NCBI RefSeq assembly: GCF_003992135.1
Contig: NZ_RQVN01000001.1
Span: forward strand, 62,001-126,000
Direction of reading: 5' to 3'
DNA from: Veillonella sp. VA142
Lineage (GTDB): Bacteria; Bacillota; Negativicutes; Veillonellales; Veillonellaceae
Length of the DNA: 64,000 nt
In this document: one piece after another, positions 22,680-38,149 of the stretch
Layout of the letters: every line of letters starts with the position of its first letter
How positions within the stretch are numbered: position 1 is the stretch's first letter
Position numbers and translations under genes: made by a program
Notes under the pieces: model-generated
The model's input: only the letters and a program-made list of their open reading frames with translations
Databases searched by the model: none
What the model was told of the DNA's origin: nothing

Positions 22680-23716
22680 GTATCTATACACTAGCCATTG
22701 AAACTAGCTGTGACGAAACATCGGCAGCGGTGTTGCAAGATGGCAGAACAGTTATTTCCAATGTGATTTCCAGTCAAGTTCCCATTCATAGAAAATTTGG
22801 CGGTGTTGTGCCAGAAGTGGCATCTCGTCATCATATTGAGCAGATTATGCCTGTTATCGACCAAGCGTTGGCAGATGCAAATCTAACATTAGACGATATG
22901 GACCATATCGGTGTTACTTATGGGCCTGGTTTAGTAGGGGCTCTGTTGGTAGGTGTGTCAGCGGCGAAGGCTTTATCCTTTGCAAAAGATATCCCTTTGG
23001 TTGGAGTTCATCATATGGAAGGCCACATCTTTGCGAACTTCCTTTTGCACCCTGATTTAGAACCGCCTTTCTTGTGTTTAGTAGTGTCTGGGGGCCATAC
23101 CATGATCGTTCATGTGACAGATTATGAAAGCTTTCAGGTGCTGGGACAAACACGTGATGATGCGGCAGGGGAAGCGTTCGATAAAATTGCTCGTGTCTTA
23201 GGGTATCCGTATCCAGGTGGACCCCATATTGATGCGTTGGCGAAGCAAGGAAATCCGGAGGCCATCGATTTCCCACGACCTTTGCTAGAAAAAGGAAACT
23301 TTGACTTTAGTTTTAGTGGCTTGAAATCGGCGGTTTTGAACTATATCAATGGAAAGCAACAAAAAGGTGAATCCATCTGTCATGAAGATGTGGCAGCCTC
23401 CTTTCAAAAGGCTATTACTGACGTATTAGTGGAAAAAATGAAAGAAGCGGCTCATACACTAGGAGAAACGAAGATTGCCTTAGCTGGCGGTGTATCTGCG
23501 AATAGTGGATTACAACGAGATTTACAAGCCATGTGTGAAGCAGAAGGTTTGACCTATCTCACAGCGGGATCTATGTTGGCTACCGATAATGCGGCAATGA
23601 TTGGATGCCGAGCTTACTATATGGCTCAATCTGGCAAATTCAGCAATTACACATTGAATGCAAAACCATCTATTCCATTAGGTAGTGATTTGTGGAAAGG
23701 AAGCCAACATGGCTAG
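22676..23716 (+). CDS. tsaD: tRNA N6-adenosine threonylcarbamoyltransferase
   Basis: Catalytic subunit that transfers threonylcarbamoyl to A37 of tRNA. The 346 residues begin [15 protein letters not shown]. The metal site HHMEGH lies near residue 112, with VSGGHT and [19 protein letters not shown] following. Length is normal. It overlaps rimI by four bases and the downstream histidine kinase gene by eight, so the kinase/regulator pair appears to be in the same operon as the t6A genes. Confidence 0.96.
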
Positions 23717-25169
23717 TTGGAAAGAGATTCTAGACAAAGAAACAGATTTATATCCTACACAGCAAGCTTTACTATTACAATTCTCTCAGCGATTAAACTT
23801 TGGTAAAGTCATCAGTGAACAAGGGGTGTCCCTCTTAGTGCAAGCTAAGGATGGACACCTTTTACTTAGTGGAGCACTAGATAGCGGTCATACAGGTATG
23901 GTACAGAAATGCAAGGTGCCTACTAATCATCCTATCCAACAGATGTTGGTAACTGGCAAACCCTATGTAGGAATCATGGATTGGGAAGAATGTACGAATA
24001 GAACAACGACAATAGAAACCTATTATGCGTATGTCTATCCCATCGTAGATAATGGTGGTAAATGCATTGGTGCTTGTGCCTTTACTAATCCTGTATCGGA
24101 GGTGTACTCTAGTCGATATAATGAATTCATGTCTATTGTGTCACAGACAAGTTTTCAAGGGATGTTGGTACCACAGCTACAACAACCAGAATTATATGAA
24201 GGAATTTCTGTGTTAGACGGAATACTCTTTTTTGAACAAGATGGTACTATTCTTTATGCGAATCGAGCGGCGAAAAAACTAGGGGATATCTTTGGCATAG
24301 ATCGACGATTACAGGGAACCTCCATTTACAGTAGTACTTTGAAAGTAGGTCGTATCAAGAAGGCCTTAGAAGATAGAGTGGGTACCATTGATGAAGAATT
24401 GTATGGTGACATTGCTTTGCGTCAAGTAATGATTCCTGTTGTTTTAGGGGTCAAGTGGAAGCGTGGTATCTTGGTATTACAGGATAAAACGGAGTTGCGC
24501 AAGCGAGATCAAGAATTACTGGTAAAAAATTCCGTCATCAAAGAAGTGCACCATCGTGTAAAAAATAATTTGCAGTCTGTGGCAGGTTTATTACGTATGC
24601 AAAGTCGTCGCAGTGGGTCCGATGATGTGAAACAAGCCTTACAAGACAGTATTCATCGTATTGAAAGTATGGCTCTCGTTCATGAAATTGTATCAAACTT
24701 TGATGAAGATTATGTGGCATTGCGCAGTATTATTGAAGAATTATGGCGATTGTTGCGACAAGGATTAGGCTCTTCTGAGCAGCTGATTGACATGGAGTAT
24801 ATAGGAGAAGATATCATTATGTCATCTCACAAGGCCAGCTATGTGTCCTTAGTGCTGAATGAACTGTTTTCCAACCTCTTTAAACATGCTTTTAAAGACA
24901 AAACAGAAGGACATGTACAGGTAGAGGTGCGAGAGGTGATGGCTCAAGGAAACCGAGATATGTTGCATATTGTTATTCGAGATACTGGCTGTGGGTTGCC
25001 AGAGGATTTTGAAAGCACCAGACAACGTAGATTAGGATTACAAATTATCGATAATTTGGTGCAGAATGAATTAGATGGAAAAATTTCATGGACATCTCAA
25101 GGAATAGGTACTGTGGTAGATATTTGGATACATAAAGGAGAAGAGTATGCGCGTCTTAGTAGTAGATGA
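23709..25169 (+). CDS. Sensor histidine kinase, PdtaS/EutW-like (HisKA_2)
   Basis: Partner of the ANTAR regulator downstream. The 486 residues contain an N-terminal sensor of the H_kinase_N type (about 10-150). A PAS-like segment follows (about 165-275), then the HisKA_2 phosphorylation site [20 protein letters not shown] (His near residue 280). HATPase_c comes last ([35 protein letters not shown]). No transmembrane segment is seen, so it is a soluble sensor. ATG follows AAAGGA and overlaps tsaD. This kinase type phosphorylates response regulators that bind RNA rather than DNA. The signal is unknown. Confidence 0.9.
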
Positions 25170-25719
25170 TGAGTCACTGATTCGCATGGACTTGCGAGAT
25201 ATATTAGAAAGCCAAGGACATACCGTTGTAGGAGAAGGGGCCAATGGAGTGGAAGCAATCCAACTATGTCAAGATCTTGTGCCAGATATAGTGCTTATGG
25301 ACGTGAAGATGCCGGAACTAGATGGTATCGAGGCGGCGCGGCAAATCCGTCATAAACGATTAGCGCCGGTGGTGCTATTAACAGCGTATAGTCAAGACGA
25401 TTTAATCCAAAAAGCATCTCAATCTGGGGTATACGGCTATTTGACTAAACCTTTACGTGAACAGGACTTAGGTCCCACTCTGCAGATGGCTATGGGTCGC
25501 TTTCAAGAAGAACGAAATTTAGTAGAACAGGTGAAAGGATTGGAAAGTTCCTTAGAAGAAAGAAAATATGTAACGAAAGCGACGGGCATATTGATGGAGT
25601 TGCATGGATTTTCCGAGGAAAAGGCGTATGAAAAAATACGAGTTTTCAGCATGGATAAGCGGATTAGTCTGGTGGAAACATGTAAAAAAATTATCGCAGC
25701 CCATGAAGCGAAATCATAA
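25147..25719 (+). CDS. ANTAR-domain response regulator (transcription antiterminator)
   Basis: The 190 residues have a receiver domain (about 1-115: [11 protein letters not shown], phospho-acceptor Asp52 in LMDVKMP, Lys in YLTKPLRE). A coiled-coil linker follows, then an ANTAR domain (about 128-185: KATGILMELHGFSEEKAYEK). ANTAR proteins bind tandem hexaloop hairpins in nascent RNA and prevent termination. The gene overlaps the kinase by 23 bp, a strong sign of a two-component pair. Its targets are not evident in the window. Confidence 0.93.
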   Translation: MRVLVVDDESLIRMDLRDILESQGHTVVGEGANGVEAIQLCQDLVPDIVLMDVKMPELDGIEAARQIRHKRLAPVVLLTAYSQDDLIQKASQSGVYGYLTKPLREQDLGPTLQMAMGRFQEERNLVEQVKGLESSLEERKYVTKATGILMELHGFSEEKAYEKIRVFSMDKRISLVETCKKIIAAHEAKS

Positions 25720-28044: not shown

Positions 28045-28095
28045 GTAAAAGATGGATGTAATTTTTTTATGTATAAGTTTACAAAGGAGAAAGTT

Positions 28096-29565
28096 ATGAA
28101 AGAAGAAAAATTGACAACAGCCTTTGGCGCTCCTGTCCCTGACAATAACAACAGTGCGACAGCTGGAAAACGTGGTCCTGTATTGATGCAAGATGTGTGG
28201 TTGATGGAAAAATTAGGCCACTTTGCTCGTGAAGTGATTCCTGAACGTCGTATGCATGCAAAAGGATCTGGTGCATTTGGTACTTTTACAGTAACAAATG
28301 ATATTACTAAATACACAAAAGCAAAAGTATTCTCTGAAGTAGGTAAAAAAACTGATTTATTTGTACGTTTTTCTACAGTAGCTGGTGAACGTGGTGCGGC
28401 TGATGCAGAACGTGATATTCGTGGCTTTGCTGTAAAAATGTATACTGAAGAAGGTAACTGGGATTTAGTTGGTAACAATACACCAGTATTCTTCATCCGC
28501 GATCCATTGCAATTCCCAGATTTGAATCGTGCAGTAAAACGTAATCCTGAAACTAACTTACGTGATGCTACTGCAAACTGGGATTTCTGGACTAGCTTGC
28601 CAGAAGCAATGCACCAAGTCACAATCGTTATGAGTGACCGTGGTATTCCAGATGGCTATCGCCATATGCACGGTTTCGGTTCCCATACATACAGCTTAAT
28701 CAATGCAAATGACGAACGCGTATGGGTTAAGTTCCACTGGGTATGCCAACAACCAATTAAAAATTTAACTGAAGATGAAGCAGCCGCTCTTATTGCGAAT
28801 GACCGTGAAAGTGCACAACGTGACTTATTCGATGCTATCGCTAAAGGTGATTTCCCACGTTGGAAATTATACATCCAAGTGATGACAGAAGAACAAGCCA
28901 ATGCTCTTCCATACAACCCATTTGACCTTACAAAAGTATGGTACAAAAAAGACTTCCCATTGATCGAAGTAGGGGTAATGGAATTGAACCGTAACCCAGA
29001 AAACTACTTCCAAGATGTAGAACAAGCTGCCTTTGCTCCATCTACAATCATTCCTGGTATTGGATTCAGCCCTGACCGCATGTTACAAGGTCGTTTGTTC
29101 TCCTATGCTGATGCGCAACGCTATCGTTTAGGTACAAACTACCATCAAATCCCTGTCAATGCACCTAAATGTCCATTCAACTCTTATCATCGTGATGGAC
29201 AAGGTCGTGTAGATGGCAACCATGGCTCTACTATTGGATATGCTCCAAATAGCTTTGGACAATGGGCTAACCAACCTCAATACAAAGATCCAGGATATGA
29301 CGTATCTGGTAAAGCATACCAATACGACTTCCGTGAAGATGACTCCGATTACTACACACAACCTGGTAAATTGTTCCGTCTTATGACTCCAGAACAACAA
29401 CAAGTATTATTCAACAATACAGCTCGTAATATGGCAGGAGTACCATTGTTCATCCAAGAACGTCATGCTAAACATTGCTATGCATGTGACCCTGCATATG
29501 GTGAAGGCGTAGCGAAAGCATTGGGCATTACAGTGGATTTCTCTACACCAGCTGACATCGGGTAA
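28096..29565 (+). CDS. Catalase (monofunctional, heme, small-subunit clade)
   Basis: Breaks hydrogen peroxide into water and oxygen. The 489 residues show the catalytic His in [16 protein letters not shown], the distal Asn region [12 protein letters not shown], and the proximal heme-ligand Tyr in [14 protein letters not shown]. The length suits clade 3 catalases without a C-terminal flavodoxin domain. The ATG follows AAAGGAGA; an ATG nine codons upstream is less favoured. The usual R-V-V/I-H-A-K-G active-site segment reads RRMHAKG here, a mild change. Veillonella are strict anaerobes with variable catalase reports, so presence of a full gene with a consensus promoter is notable. Confidence 0.95.
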
Positions 29566-32346: not shown

Positions 32347-32716
32347 TTTGAGCATATTGTAAAATTAGTAATATAAAAAATAGACATATATTTTGTTCAT
32401 GTGTACAAAGTATATGTCTATTTCTATATGTATCTATGTCTTATAAACTACATACCTGAGTAGTCTACCGTCTATAGTACAAGAAAAAGGGAGTACTCAT
32501 TAATATTGTAAAAATATGAAGAAAAATATAAAAAAATATACTGTTTTATATATCCCTAAAAAAATATAGGAATAGCATTTACAATATTGATAAAATTCAG
32601 TATAATAGACATTGTTGAATCTCTTGGTAGAGAATATAAATTTCAATATGCTATAAATGAATAGGTGATATATAAATATATCATCAAAATCATAGTGAAA
32701 TAGTAGAAATTAGCTT
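32347..32716. other. AT-rich non-coding region upstream of suf
   Basis: Contains the lysA terminator, a promoter-like pair TTTACA-17-TATAAT (32578-32606), and small hairpins TCTCT/AGAGA near 32619 and TGATATAT/ATATATCA near 32667. No open reading frame with a ribosome site is visible; an unannotated short transcript from 32612 is possible. Confidence 0.4.
32378..32425 (+). terminator. Terminator of lysA
   Basis: 13-bp perfect stem AAATAGACATATA / TATATGTCTATTT, extended by TTTGT/ACAAA in the loop. The T-rich arm serves as the U-tract. Nearly symmetric, so it may work in both directions. Confidence 0.8.
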
Positions 32717-32743
32717 GCGGTCTGCGTCTATACACGGTATAAT
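32715..32743 (+). promoter_or_regulatory. Sigma-A promoter of the suf leader
   Basis: TTGCGG, 17 bp, TATAAT. Transcription would begin near 32750. Confidence 0.65.
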
Positions 32744-32749
32744 ATATCT

Positions 32750-32840
32750 GGTATATTTACTATTTTAGATGTAAGCCAAAGTGGCGTTCTCATGCTATGA
32801 ATATGACAGCGGATTACACTTTGGTGGAATCCGTTTTTTT
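32750..32840 (+). ncRNA. Candidate regulatory leader (or ~90-nt small RNA) upstream of sufC
   Basis: CCAAAGTG (32776-32783) is perfectly complementary to CACTTTGG (32817-32824). The second segment is exactly the loop of a terminator hairpin, CGGATT (32810-32815) / AATCCG (32828-32833), followed by seven T. The two pairings compete or form a pseudoknot, the layout of a transcription attenuator. Alternatively the promoter-to-terminator interval is a free-standing 90-nt RNA. No known riboswitch consensus was recognised. Confidence 0.5.
32810..32840 (+). terminator. Terminator between the suf leader and sufC
   Basis: 6-bp stem CGGATT / AATCCG, 12-nt loop, TTTTTTT. It stands ahead of the suf operon with no gene before it. 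Confidence 0.7.
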
Positions 32841-32916
32841 ACGGTATTCGACGCATTCTAAGACCTAACTAGTCTTCTTTTGTATATAGTAGCTTATTTG
32901 ATAAGGAGTGACATAC

Positions 32917-33660
32917 GTGGCAGAATTACTTCGCGTGGACAATGTGCGTGCCTCTATTGAAGAAAAAGAAATCTTAAAGGGCATCAATTTAACAATTAAT
33001 AAAGGTGAAATCCATGTAGTAATGGGCACAAATGGTGCTGGTAAATCTACATTGGCAAATGTAATCATGGGCAACCCTGCTTATGAAGTAACAGAAGGTT
33101 CCATCGTGTTCGACGGTGAGAATATTACAGAAGAAGCTGTAAATGATCGTGCTAAAAAAGGCATTTTCATGTCTTTCCAAACACCTATATCTGTACCTGG
33201 TATTACAGTAGAAAACTTTATTCGTACGGCTAAAAATACTATTACTGGTGAAAATGTACGTGCCTTGGCTTTCAAGAAAGAATTGAAATCTAAAATGGAA
33301 GAGTTATCCTTTGATACATCTTATGCTAATCGTTATGTGAATGAAGGTTTCTCTGGCGGTGAAAGAAAGAAAAATGAGATCCTTCAAATGTCTATCTTGA
33401 ACCCTAAATTGGCCATCCTTGATGAAACTGACTCCGGTCTTGACGTAGATGCGGTGCGTATTGTATCTGAAGGTGTGAACCGTTTCCATAATGAGGAAAA
33501 TGCGGTGTTAATCATCACTCACCATAATCAAATTCTACAAAAATTAAAACCAAATTTTGTACACATCTTAATCGATGGTCGTATTGTAAAAACTGGTGGT
33601 CCTGAACTCGTTCGTGAAATCGAAGAAAAAGGCTACGACGCATACAAAAATTTAGCATAG
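32917..33660 (+). CDS. sufC: Fe-S cluster assembly ATPase SufC
   Basis: ABC-type ATPase of the SufBC2D scaffold complex for iron-sulfur cluster assembly in the cytosol. The 247 residues show Walker A GTNGAGKSTLANVI, the Suf-specific signature EGFSGGERKKNEI, and Walker B LAILDETDSGLDVDAV. I chose the GTG six nt after AAGGAGTG; an earlier in-frame GTG overlaps that ribosome site. It heads the sufC-B-D-S-U operon. Confidence 0.96.
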   Translation: MAELLRVDNVRASIEEKEILKGINLTINKGEIHVVMGTNGAGKSTLANVIMGNPAYEVTEGSIVFDGENITEEAVNDRAKKGIFMSFQTPISVPGITVENFIRTAKNTITGENVRALAFKKELKSKMEELSFDTSYANRYVNEGFSGGERKKNEILQMSILNPKLAILDETDSGLDVDAVRIVSEGVNRFHNEENAVLIITHHNQILQKLKPNFVHILIDGRIVKTGGPELVREIEEKGYDAYKNLA

Positions 33661-33669
33661 GAGGATCTC

Positions 33670-35079
33670 ATGGAAGCGAGAAAGAAAACTCAAATTGAGG
33701 AGATGGATCGCGGCGTCTATGACATTCGTAATGAATTTGAATTCTCCTATAAATCAGAAGCTGGTTTAACAGAAGACATCATTCGTGAAATGTGGGCTAA
33801 CAAAAATGAACCACAATGGATGCTAGATTTCCGTTTAAAATCCCTTGAAATTTACAATCAATTAGACATTCCTAATTGGGTACCTGATATTAGCGCTTTA
33901 AATATGGCGGATATTGTTACCTATGTAAAACCTAAAATTGATATGAAAGAAGACTGGAACGAAGTTCCAGATGATATTAAAGATACATTTGACCGCCTTG
34001 GTATCCAAGAAGCTGAAAAAACTTCTTTGGCTGGTGTAGGCGCTCAATATGACTCTGAAGTTGTATATCATAGTATTCAAGAAGACTTGATTCGTCAAGG
34101 CGTTGTGTACACAGATATGCAAACAGCATTACATGAGCATGAAGATATTGTAAAACAATACTTTATGACATTGGTGCCACCTACGGATCATAAATTTGCA
34201 GCCTTACATGGTGCCGTATGGTCTGGTGGTTCCTTCGTATATGTGCCAAAAGGGGTAACTGTAGATATTCCATTGCAGTCTTACTTCCGTTTGAATGCAC
34301 CAGGAGCTGGTCAGTTTGAACATACATTGATTATCGTAGAAGAAGGGGCAAAAGCTCACTTTATCGAAGGCTGTTCTGCTCCAAAATACAATGTAGCTAA
34401 CTTACATGCTGGTTGCGTTGAATTATTTGTAAAAGATAATGCTACTTTGCGTTATTCCACTATCGAAAACTGGTCTAAAAATATGTACAACTTGAATACG
34501 AAACGTAGTCGAGTTGGTAAAAATGGTACTATCGAGTGGGTATCTGGATCCTTTGGTTCCGCTGTATCTTGCTTGTATCCAATGAGTATTTTGGCTGGTG
34601 AAGGGGCACACTGTGAATTTACAGGTGTCACATTTGCTGGTGAAGGTCAATACTTAGACACAGGAGCAAAAGTTATCCATGCGGCTCCACATACAACAAG
34701 TAATGTGAACTCTAAGTCCATTTCTAAGAGTGGTGGTACAGCCATTTATCGTGGCGTCTTAAACATCGGTAAAAATGCAGACTATTCCAAAGCAACTGTG
34801 TCCTGCGAATCTTTGATGTTGGATCAAGAATCTCAATCCGATACAATTCCATCGATTACTATTGAAAATGACAATGTCGATTTAGGACATGAAGCAAAAA
34901 TCGGCCGTATTTCCGATGAAGCTATTTTCTACTTAATGACTCGTGGTATTAGTGAAGAAGAAGCGAGAGCTATGCTTGTTCGTGGTTTCGTAGAACCAAT
35001 TTCTAAAGAATTACCATTAGAATATGCAGTAGAAATGAATAATTTAATTACCTTAGAACTTGAAGGTTCTATCGGTTAG
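33670..35079 (+). CDS. sufB: Fe-S cluster assembly scaffold SufB
   Basis: Beta-helical scaffold protein on which clusters are built with SufC and SufD. The 469 residues have the SufB pattern. There is an acidic N-terminus, then SYFRLNAPGAGQFEHTLIIV, CSAPKYNVANLHAGCVELF, and the C-terminal ARAMLVRGFVEP. The conserved Cys in VSCESLMLD is a candidate cluster ligand. ATG follows AGGAGG nine bp after sufC. Confidence 0.96.
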   Translation: MEARKKTQIEEMDRGVYDIRNEFEFSYKSEAGLTEDIIREMWANKNEPQWMLDFRLKSLEIYNQLDIPNWVPDISALNMADIVTYVKPKIDMKEDWNEVPDDIKDTFDRLGIQEAEKTSLAGVGAQYDSEVVYHSIQEDLIRQGVVYTDMQTALHEHEDIVKQYFMTLVPPTDHKFAALHGAVWSGGSFVYVPKGVTVDIPLQSYFRLNAPGAGQFEHTLIIVEEGAKAHFIEGCSAPKYNVANLHAGCVELFVKDNATLRYSTIENWSKNMYNLNTKRSRVGKNGTIEWVSGSFGSAVSCLYPMSILAGEGAHCEFTGVTFAGEGQYLDTGAKVIHAAPHTTSNVNSKSISKSGGTAIYRGVLNIGKNADYSKATVSCESLMLDQESQSDTIPSITIENDNVDLGHEAKIGRISDEAIFYLMTRGISEEEARAMLVRGFVEPISKELPLEYAVEMNNLITLELEGSIG

Positions 35080-35088
35080 GAGGTTAGG

Positions 35089-36138
35089 ATGAGCAACACA
35101 TTACATTTTAATGAATTGCCTAGACCGACTTTCCGTTGGTTAAAGGTAAATCACACAGAAGGTAACGTATGGGCTGGTACAGAACGTGCAACGGTGACTG
35201 TGGAGGGATCCAAGCATATTGTAGCAGACATTACAAATAAAGAATTATTAGAGTCTTCGTACAAAGGTGTTCACGCTGGTGCATTGCGTGATGCATCACA
35301 TCATTTTACACATGGTTATCACATTCAAGTACCAGCGGGTGCTAAGGAAGCATTGACCATTGTGTTAGATGTGCAAGGCGCTGTGAGTGAAAGAACGCGC
35401 TTACAAATTGAAGCTGAAAAAGACTCTACATTAGAGTTAACACTATGCTTGAAAGGTGAGGCAACTGATGGTCATGTAGGAGTACTTTCAGAAATCGTAT
35501 CCCATACAGGTGCTTCTGTAGTGTTTAAGAAAGTACAATTGTTAACTGGTAAGGTACAACAATTTGAACATCGTTATACACGAGTAGAAGAGTCTGGTCA
35601 TGTAGAGTTTATCAATGTTGAATTGGGTGGTTCTGAAAACTTCTTAAATTATCAAGAAGATTTAGTAGGTGACTACGCAGAAGTTGAACATGATTTAGGC
35701 TACTGTGGTCATGATACACAAGTATTTGATGTCGCTATGTTGATGAAACATATCGGTAGAAAAACAATCAGTAATATTAATAACTTAGGTGCATTGAATG
35801 GTTCTTCTAAAAAATCATTCCGTGGTACCTTAGATTTCTTGCGTGGTAGTATTGCATCAGAAGGTGCAGAAGAAGATACATGCTTATTATTAACTCCACA
35901 AGTTAAATCTATCTCTTTACCATTGTTATTATGTAAAGAAGATAATGTATCTGGTAATCACGCATCTAGTGCTGGTCAATTAGATCAAGCTAAATTATTC
36001 TATTTAATGAGTCGTGGTTTCAACGAAGACGAAGCAAAACACATCATTGTAGAATCTATGTTACGACCATTGATTGATCGTATTGGCAATGAAGAACTGG
36101 AAGAAGCTGCCTTAGCAGTACTACGACAAAAAATATAA
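35089..36138 (+). CDS. sufD: Fe-S cluster assembly protein SufD
   Basis: Paralogue of SufB that completes the SufBC2D scaffold. The 349 residues are a little short for the family but keep the core: FRGTLDFLRG, the HASSAGQLDQAKLFYLMSRG segment and EDEAKHIIVESML at the C-terminus. The N-terminal half is divergent. ATG follows AGGAGG, nine bp after sufB. Confidence 0.93.
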   Translation: MSNTLHFNELPRPTFRWLKVNHTEGNVWAGTERATVTVEGSKHIVADITNKELLESSYKGVHAGALRDASHHFTHGYHIQVPAGAKEALTIVLDVQGAVSERTRLQIEAEKDSTLELTLCLKGEATDGHVGVLSEIVSHTGASVVFKKVQLLTGKVQQFEHRYTRVEESGHVEFINVELGGSENFLNYQEDLVGDYAEVEHDLGYCGHDTQVFDVAMLMKHIGRKTISNINNLGALNGSSKKSFRGTLDFLRGSIASEGAEEDTCLLLTPQVKSISLPLLLCKEDNVSGNHASSAGQLDQAKLFYLMSRGFNEDEAKHIIVESMLRPLIDRIGNEELEEAALAVLRQKI

Positions 36139-36152
36139 TTGAGAGGGATAGT

Positions 36153-37382
36153 ATGAAACCAATAGCAGAGGCATATAAAGATTTTCCAATTTTAACAAGA
36201 ACGCATCGGGGCAAACGCATCGCTTACTTAGATAGTGGTGCAACTACACAAATTCCAGTTCCTGTAATGAAAGCTTTAGAAACACATATGGCAAATCACA
36301 ATGGAAATCCCCATCGTGGGGCCCATGTGCTTGCTATGGAAGCGTCCGAAGCATACGAAGGTACTCGTGACGTGGTGCAACGATTTATCAATGCTCGAAA
36401 ACGAGAAGAAATTATTTTTACTCGAAATACGACAGAAAGCTTGAACTTAATTGCTCACTCCTATGGATTAAAGCATGTGAAAGCAGGAGATAAAATCGTC
36501 ATCACTGTAGCGGAGCATCATGCGAATCTTGTGACTTGGCAATATGTATGCCGGGTGACAGGGGCTACTTTGGAATATTTGTACCTAGATGAGACGGGTC
36601 ACATCAAAGACGGCGAAATGGATAAAATTGACGAGTCTACGAAGATTGTATCCTTTGCCCACGTGAGCAATGTACTAGGTATGGAATTTCCTGTGAAAGA
36701 ATTGGTAGAACGTGCTCATGCTGTTGGTGCTATCGCTATCCTAGACGGAGCGCAATCGGCTCCTCATCAAGCTATTGATGTGCAAGCCTTAGATTGTGAT
36801 TTCTTCGTTTTCTCAGGACATAAAATGTGTGCCTCTCAAGGTATTGGTGTTGTGTATGGCAAATATCATTTATTAGAAGACATGGATCCATTCTTATTTG
36901 GCGGTGACATGATTGAATATGTGAAAGAACAAACTACCACATTCAACGAAGTACCTTATAAATTTGAGGCAGGTACACCAAATGCACACGGGGCGATCAC
37001 ATTGAAAGCTGCCATTGAGTATTTGGAACAGTTTGGTATGGATGCCATCCATGAATATGAACAAGAATTAGTTCGCTATGTATTACCGAAGCTAGTAGCT
37101 ATACCACATATTCATGTATTAGGTAGCCCTAATCCAGAAGAAAAGCATGGAGTGATTGCATTTACAGTGGATGATGTACATCCTCATGATGTAGCAACCA
37201 TTATGGATAGTCACGGAGTATGCTTGCGATCTGGTCATCATTGTGCGCAACCACTAGGAGCTTACTATGGAGTACCAGCATCCAACCGTATCAGTATGTA
37301 CATCTATACTAGAAAAGAAGATTTAGATCAATTTTTAGAAGCCCTGAAAACAGTTCGACCAACCATGGGCTTATCAGAGTAA
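36153..37382 (+). CDS. sufS: Cysteine desulfurase SufS
   Basis: PLP enzyme that takes sulfur from cysteine and passes a persulfide to SufU. The 409 residues include TRNTTESLNLIA, EHHANLVTWQ, the PLP lysine in VFSGHKMCASQGIGVVYG, and the persulfide Cys in LRSGHHCAQPLGAYYG. This is the class II (SufS) motif. ATG follows GAGAGGG, 14 bp after sufD. Confidence 0.96.
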   Translation: MKPIAEAYKDFPILTRTHRGKRIAYLDSGATTQIPVPVMKALETHMANHNGNPHRGAHVLAMEASEAYEGTRDVVQRFINARKREEIIFTRNTTESLNLIAHSYGLKHVKAGDKIVITVAEHHANLVTWQYVCRVTGATLEYLYLDETGHIKDGEMDKIDESTKIVSFAHVSNVLGMEFPVKELVERAHAVGAIAILDGAQSAPHQAIDVQALDCDFFVFSGHKMCASQGIGVVYGKYHLLEDMDPFLFGGDMIEYVKEQTTTFNEVPYKFEAGTPNAHGAITLKAAIEYLEQFGMDAIHEYEQELVRYVLPKLVAIPHIHVLGSPNPEEKHGVIAFTVDDVHPHDVATIMDSHGVCLRSGHHCAQPLGAYYGVPASNRISMYIYTRKEDLDQFLEALKTVRPTMGLSE

Positions 37383-37392
37383 GGAGAATACC

Positions 37393-37818
37393 ATGGAAAT
37401 GGATCAAGTGTATACGGAACTGATTTTGGAGCATAACCAAGACAAGCGTAATAAACGTTTATTAGATGTGTTTACCGCTAGTGAGCATGGTCATAACCCA
37501 AGTTGTGGGGATGATTTGACATTACAAGTGAATGTGGTAGATGGCATTGTAAAAGATGCTGCTTATACGGGTTCCGGCTGTGCTATCAGCCAAGCATCGG
37601 CATCTATGATGATTGATGTCATTACTGGGAAATCCTTAGAAGAAGCGTTTCAATTAGTAGACCTTTTCTTAGGAATGATTAAAAAAGAAGTGACAGATGA
37701 AGAGGAATTAGAAGCCTTAGAAGATGCGATTGCTTTACAAAATATTTCCAACATGCCTGCCCGTGTGAAATGTGCAGTGCTTGCTTGGCATACATTACGT
37801 GAAGCATTGAAGAAATAA
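37393..37818 (+). CDS. sufU: Zinc-dependent sulfurtransferase SufU
   Basis: Small protein that accepts sulfur from SufS and delivers it to the scaffold. The 141 residues carry the three conserved Cys in NPSCGDD, GSGCAISQASASMM and ARVKCAVLAW, plus the Asp after the first Cys that completes the zinc site. ATG follows AAGGAG. Last gene of the suf operon, closed by a strong terminator. Confidence 0.95.
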   Translation: MEMDQVYTELILEHNQDKRNKRLLDVFTASEHGHNPSCGDDLTLQVNVVDGIVKDAAYTGSGCAISQASASMMIDVITGKSLEEAFQLVDLFLGMIKKEVTDEEELEALEDAIALQNISNMPARVKCAVLAWHTLREALKK

Positions 37819-37924: not shown

Positions 37925-38149
37925 TTACCATTGCCCTTCTTGGTGTTCTTTTAATAGTTTTACCACTCTTGGGCCACAGCCTTTGCCACCGCATGCACCG
38001 GTACCAGCACTAGTGCGCTCTCTAACTTTAGGAAATGTATCACAACCATCTAAGATGGCTTCCTTAATTGCTTTTCTTGTAATACTACGGCAAGTACAAA
38101 CTTTTGTTAATTTATCTAAAATGGCCGTAGGAATTTGATTATCTTCCAT
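37925..38149 (-). CDS. BFD-like [2Fe-2S]-binding protein
   Basis: A 74-residue protein with the Fer2_BFD cysteine pattern: a CTC pair in KVCTCRSITRKAIKEAI and later CGGKGC in GACGGKGCGPRVVKLL. BFD domains bind a [2Fe-2S] cluster, as free bacterioferritin-associated ferredoxins or as parts of redox enzymes. The ATG follows AGGAGAA on the minus strand. It is convergent with the suf operon and has its own promoter with a long inverted repeat. A role in iron release or electron transfer near Fe-S assembly is plausible but inferred. Confidence 0.85.
   Translation of the reverse strand: MEDNQIPTAILDKLTKVCTCRSITRKAIKEAILDGCDTFPKVRERTSAGTGACGGKGCGPRVVKLLKEHQEGQW

Follow-up and report, generated by a model that had tools for sequence, protein, structure and literature searches.

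A conserved leader with an intrinsic terminator precedes the suf operon in Veillonellaceae and is a candidate transcription attenuator

Background

Control of suf and isc operons is known at the level of transcription initiation by IscR, SufR and Fur, complemented by trans-acting small RNAs; IscR/Rrf2 proteins act on these operons at the DNA level. In Veillonella sp. VA142, the suf operon is preceded by a promoter that is followed by a terminator instead of a gene. The sequence-only reading had offered two explanations: the leader switches between a terminator and an antiterminator to control sufC-B-D-S-U, or the terminator ends a free RNA of about 90 nt. Both were followed up in the 64,000-nt stretch of DNA containing the locus, referred to here as the window, and in the genomes of related bacteria.

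Results and discussion

Organization of the suf leader

The arrangement described previously, a promoter, a pair of complementary sequences, a terminator with seven T residues and the suf genes downstream, was confirmed as a whole (Table 1). The promoter was present as proposed, no plus-strand open reading frame of at least 60 amino acids starts between promoter and terminator, and the positions of CCAAAGTG and of its exact complement CACTTTGG in the terminator loop were verified. One correction had to be made: CCAAAGTG is not free, but constitutes the 5' arm and the loop of a hairpin of its own, designated P1. The terminator hairpin, P2, has a calculated fold energy of -12.4 kcal/mol. The gene order sufC-B-D-S-U was corroborated by protein family matches, although the match of SufD stayed below its curated cut-off.

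Table 1. Features of the suf leader region in the window
Feature	Position	Strand	Basis or remark
AT-rich conserved block CATAGTGAAATAGTAGAAATTAGC adjoining the -35 box	32691-32714	+	28-genome alignment
Sigma-70 type promoter TTGCGG-17-TATAAT	32715-32743	+	sequence (-35 TTGCGG 32715-32720, 17-bp spacer, -10 TATAAT 32738-32743); TTGC-17-TATAAT in 28/28 relatives (Veillonellaceae)
Leader RNA, ~91 nt	32750-32840	+	start inferred 7 nt past the -10 box; end of the U-tract
P1 hairpin GCCAAAGTGGC, includes CCAAAGTG	32775-32785	+	covariation; RNAalifold; 0/12 variable columns in the window's genus
CCAAAGTG, 5' arm and loop of P1	32776-32783		sequence
P2, intrinsic terminator hairpin with CAC-TTTG-GTG apex	32809-32840	+	fold; near-invariant apex; arms GCGGATT 32809-32815 and AATCCGT 32828-32834, seven T 32834-32840
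CACTTTGG, strand of the P2 apex that complements the 5' arm and loop of P1	32817-32824	+	
sufC SD region AAGGAGTGA	32903-32911	+	kept in 28/28
sufC, GTG start at 32917	32917-33660	+	TIGR01978, 341 bits (cut-off 212.8)
sufB	33670-35079	+	TIGR01980, above cut-off
sufD	35089-36138	+	best match TIGR01981, below its cut-off
sufS	36153-37382	+	TIGR01979, above cut-off
sufU	37393-37818	+	TIGR01994, above cut-off

A simple promoter and terminator scan of the window listed neither the suf promoter, the -35 box of which matches in three of six positions, nor the leader terminator, the loop of which exceeds the limit of the scan; the sequence-only reading had recognized both. A second, stronger promoter-like site (TTTACA-17-TATAAT, 11 of 12 positions) is located upstream of the suf promoter at 32578-32606; judged by eye, it is conserved in the genus of the window only. 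Transcripts from this site would also cross P2.

Conservation of the leader in Veillonellaceae

sufC was detected in all 28 Veillonellaceae genomes examined, which fall into four genera, g1 (the genus of the window, six genomes), g2 (seven), g3 (one) and g4 (14). Among the named records matched by the sufC query are Veillonella sp. VA137 and VA139, V. denticariosi, V. caviae, V. infantium, V. agrestimuris, and V. ratti. In each of the 28 genomes, promoter, P1 and P2 are found in constant order directly upstream of sufC. Among the six genomes of the window's genus, P1 is invariant (0 of 12 columns variable), as is P2 including its U-tract (0 of 32). Flanking regions do vary: 8 of 31 columns differ in the 5' leader, 11 of 59 in the stretch behind the terminator and 15 of 66 in that preceding the -35 box. 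Between genera, the 5' part of the leader and the linker between P1 and P2 are divergent.

A covariance model was built from 19 leaders; in one alignment step 19 of the 28 leaders were used, the other nine being identical in that segment to rows already included. With this model, each of the 28 genomes yielded a single strong match, scoring 51.4 bits or more, and the next best match within the family reached 30.8 bits. A search of 250 genomes of the class recovered the 28 family members, and none of the 222 others scored above 34.6 bits. The leader of V. agrestimuris (L107), which had not contributed to the model, was matched at 56.1 bits in a set of 35 loci consisting of the 28 family leaders and L104-L110, with L102 and L103 left out. 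In 53 of the loci that lie outside the family, no match did better than an E-value of 0.66. Further copies of the element in these genomes were considered and rejected, as the next-best matches examined, L098 and L100, are plain terminators lacking P1.

In the sufC leaders of two sister families, terminators were predicted in one of 16 cases (f4) and none of 11 (f2), and the single f4 match is not a true terminator but a hairpin that spans the promoter. For this comparison, the truncated locus L065 was dropped, and L063 consists partly of N. Applied to Veillonellaceae, the scan detects 27 of the 28 leaders. The suf promoters of the sister families are of the TTGAC type and are not followed by a terminator. 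Those of f4 (L042-L057), situated 80-120 nt before sufC, have TTGACTTTAT...TGGAGTA in common. We take this sequence to resemble an Rrf2/IscR operator, and it may be one.

The sequence-only reading had tied its proposal to conservation of the helices in relatives, and P1 and P2 are both conserved. Conservation, and not the statistics of a single genome, decides in favor of the leader. As judged from these comparisons, it is a real conserved element of Veillonellaceae and a genuine candidate for a family-wide cis-regulatory leader of suf.

P1 and the terminator

RNAalifold recovered both P1 and P2 without an input structure. For the three core pairs of P1, 57 of 57 cells are paired, and GC/AU and CG/UG/UA variants occur. 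Neither any of 500 shuffles nor any slid register attained the covariation score of this core; the longer P1 helix behaved like the core pairs. From the sufC tree, the independent paired changes are few, two or three, because the whole of g2 has AU as its outer core pair. The exact inverted repeat formed by CCAAAGTG and CACTTTGG in the window might also be regarded as a protein-binding operator in the DNA. This interpretation is extremely improbable, since the distance separating the two arms is not constant across genera but varies by over 10 nt, P1 covaries internally, and the arms are located within the transcribed region, one of them surrounded by the terminator stem.

The CAC/GUG apex of P2 is nearly invariant (98% of cells paired). 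The pair counts for P2 are lowered by a one-column misplacement of its 3' arm that affects the window's genus in alignments A1 and A2. An invariant apex is not required of an ordinary intrinsic terminator. Pairing of the apex sequence UCACUUU with the sufC SD sequence GGAGUGA was considered as an explanation and dismissed, because f4 leaders without P2 retain much the same SD.

Other structures were also looked for. No conserved leader peptide was seen on inspection of the 28 leaders, and a start-stop or leader peptide was rejected, ATGTAA being present in some genomes only. Apart from P1, nothing large enough to be a ligand-binding aptamer can be seen, and there is no conserved core of aptamer size. 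In Veillonella sensu stricto (L020-L040, L107), a 5' strand GCACAUA can pair with UAUGUGU immediately after the U-tract, and a longer, altered form of this pairing is present in G026. For this helix, P0, none of 500 shuffles was as strong in g4, but swaps between species were nearly equal (43 of 500), and P0 is kept only as a lead.

Complementarity between P1 and the P2 apex

Pairing of P1 (columns 7-15) with the apex (columns 50-58), the proposed antiterminator, was possible in 90.6% of cells compared with 31-51% in slid registers. Covariation was obtained for the P1 hairpin but not for the CCAAAGTG/CACTTTGG helix, the score of which was reached in 276 of 500 shuffles; none is visible because the columns involved vary too little. 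For the window itself, one of 1000 apex shuffles gave a duplex as strong. Among 165 other terminator-like hairpins, 3.6% have an upstream complement of at least this strength, and the complement in one genome alone is therefore merely suggestive. Across genomes, the mean energy of the P1-apex duplex was reached in none of 2000 apex shuffles, and 32 of 5000 swaps between genomes were as good as the genomes' own combinations.

The strength of the duplex depends on the lineage. It ranges from -9.3 to -17.0 kcal/mol in g1, g2, g3 and two members of g4, G023 and G026. Core Veillonella, comprising 12 of the 14 g4 genomes and V. agrestimuris, has a weak duplex with energies between -1.2 and -8.1 kcal/mol. 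Ranked against the 165 terminator-like hairpins, the complementarity belongs to the top 1.2-5.5% in g1 and g2, 14% in g3, 7% in G023 and G026, and 12-39% in the other g4 genomes. In core Veillonella, the leaders are consequently no more complementary than ordinary terminators, and a separate candidate for an antiterminator in this group, UAUGCACA with UGUGCGUA, is no stronger than the pairing found upstream of such terminators and is kept only as a lead. The antiterminator put forward in the sequence-only reading is accordingly a strong pairing in the former lineages and a weak one in the latter. The sufC tree places G023 and G026 either at an early fork of g4 or beyond its remaining members, although some of its forks are open and the branch leading to G026 is long. 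Since pairing is strong in these two, it is probably ancestral and was weakened later, as far as such trees can suggest. In G026, it is retained with U-A in place of the C-G of g2.

Minimum free energy folds of the growing RNA were calculated for 15 representatives. The P1-apex helix appeared before P2 in ten of them and was never the most stable state in five, and in 14 of 15 P2 replaced the earlier fold once its 3' arm existed. Competition between P1 and the apex is plausible.

The pattern could also be accounted for by a fixed, partial terminator, P2 allowing constant read-through, P1 aiding folding or pausing, and regulation taking place at the promoter, for example by an Rrf2/IscR-type repressor. 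The weak antiterminator of core Veillonella would fit, as would the two to five Rrf2 genes per genome, one of them IscR-like in the genome of the window, and the conserved block next to the -35 box, a possible repressor site. We nevertheless regard it as unlikely, because the P1 loop and the P2 apex are conserved beyond the needs of a plain terminator, and sister families with TTGAC promoters manage without one. The block CATAGTGAAATAGTAGAAATTAGC itself, kept in three genera and changed in Veillonella sensu stricto, is a possible operator or UP-like element. It was rejected as a regulon-wide DNA operator: a genome scan detected a single exact copy, and the remaining matches were on a par with the backwards control.

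Transcription of suf by read-through

A separate promoter between the terminator and sufC (32841-32917), which could have supplied all suf transcription, had been considered in the sequence-only reading. None conserved among the 28 genomes was found. The distance from terminator to SD ranges from 46 to 114 nt. Promoter-like sites matching at least nine of 12 positions occur there in ten of 28 genomes, at scattered positions and always outside the window's genus, in which none of the six genomes has such a site. With a terminator-containing leader in 28 of 28 genomes and no conserved second promoter, control of suf by read-through is the natural reading. Transcription of suf through P2 would be the most economical interpretation of the sequences, and attenuation based on P2 appears likely.

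The other proposal, a stable trans-acting RNA of about 90 nt with suf transcribed from its own promoter or by leakage, draws on a promoter and a terminator that enclose no gene. It is very unlikely in view of the single copy per genome, placed always immediately before sufC, the divergence of the 5' part and of the P1-P2 linker between genera, and the lack of a conserved second suf promoter. Moreover, it cannot replace read-through unless an unseen suf promoter exists. What stands of the proposed leader switch are the conserved promoter, hairpin and terminator without a second promoter; the antiterminator helix is not supported by covariation.

A model for attenuation

With somewhat better than even odds, we regard the element as an attenuator that acts in cis on the transcription of suf, P1 competing with the P2 apex. 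According to this model, RNA polymerase would start near position 32750 and synthesize P1 first and then the terminator. If P2 forms, transcription would stop with an RNA of about 91 nt, and suf mRNA would be produced only by polymerases that read through. Before the 3' arm of P2 exists, the 5' arm and loop of P1 could pair with the apex (9 bp in the window's genus), which would delay or block P2 and favor read-through. If P1 is folded on itself, the apex would be free and P2 would terminate. Control would thus be exerted at P1, which a factor tied to Fe-S, iron or redox demand would keep folded or open. Termination in vivo, the competition between P1 and P2, and the signal with its direction are what we infer from these data. 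More specifically, the leader might sense Fe-S, iron, cysteine or redox state, alone or via a bound factor, and set suf expression by termination in a manner specific to Veillonellaceae, a proposal that must be called doubtful.

A terminator conserved throughout the family between the only conserved promoter and sufC would place Fe-S assembly under transcription attenuation. If true, an RNA-level attenuator for Fe-S assembly would operate in a family whose sister families have suf leaders devoid of terminators. As the leader of about 90 nt occurs in cultured Veillonella species, testing in vitro is directly feasible.

Comparison with known systems

The leader would be a switch of a well-known type in an unaccustomed position. 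With terminator/antiterminator riboswitches and with attenuators controlled by ribosomes or proteins, it would share mutually exclusive helices around an intrinsic terminator, but it differs from them by having no Rfam match, no aptamer-sized core and no conserved leader peptide. At the gathering score, Rfam gave no match in the whole window, and loose E-values on the leader yielded chance-level hits only. With the IscR/Rrf2 system, the target operon is shared, while the conserved feature lies here in the transcribed leader.

As in the ANTAR-responsive leaders, the substrates of EutV, NasR and AmiR (PMC3369931), the intrinsic terminator of the suf leader is preceded by a small hairpin. According to the same source, however, ANTAR substrates need two hexaloop hairpins with A at position 1 and G at position 4. 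Two such hairpins are present in none of the 28 leaders and one in a single leader; the suf leader was therefore rejected as an ANTAR substrate. A strict scan for the dual hairpins within the window was likewise negative. A HisKA_2 histidine kinase and an ANTAR response regulator (25147-25719) are encoded at 23685-25719, 7 kb upstream of the leader. All of 60 relatives, 32 of them members of the order outside the family, were found to carry ANTAR genes, in most cases a single one; as two families without a suf terminator are among them, their presence is not discriminating.

Another possible reading makes P1, alone or together with the P2 apex, the target of an RNA-binding protein that controls termination, the complementarity of P1 and P2 being secondary. 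The P1 hairpin and much of its loop are indeed kept in 28 of 28 leaders, even where complementarity to P2 has decayed. Such a site is distinctly unlikely, given that the ANTAR dual hexaloops are missing from all 28 leaders, CAT_RBD antiterminators of the LicT/SacY type are encoded in none of the six genomes of the window's genus, and no candidate protein was found.

Neither an attenuator in a suf leader nor a suf RNA of Veillonella was reported in search listings of the open-access literature. The ilvD, potE and gltD RNA motifs of Veillonella are described as clade-restricted candidate cis-regulatory RNAs, some with terminators (PMC8632094). The suf leader is also clade-restricted, but precedes different genes, and the main text of PMC8632094 does not mention sufC or Fe-S. 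Two further genes of the window may be recorded. A small BFD-like [2Fe-2S] protein is encoded on the minus strand at 37925-38149, its gene and the suf operon converging at their 3' ends, and a catalase gene is located at 28069-29565 in this Veillonella genome.
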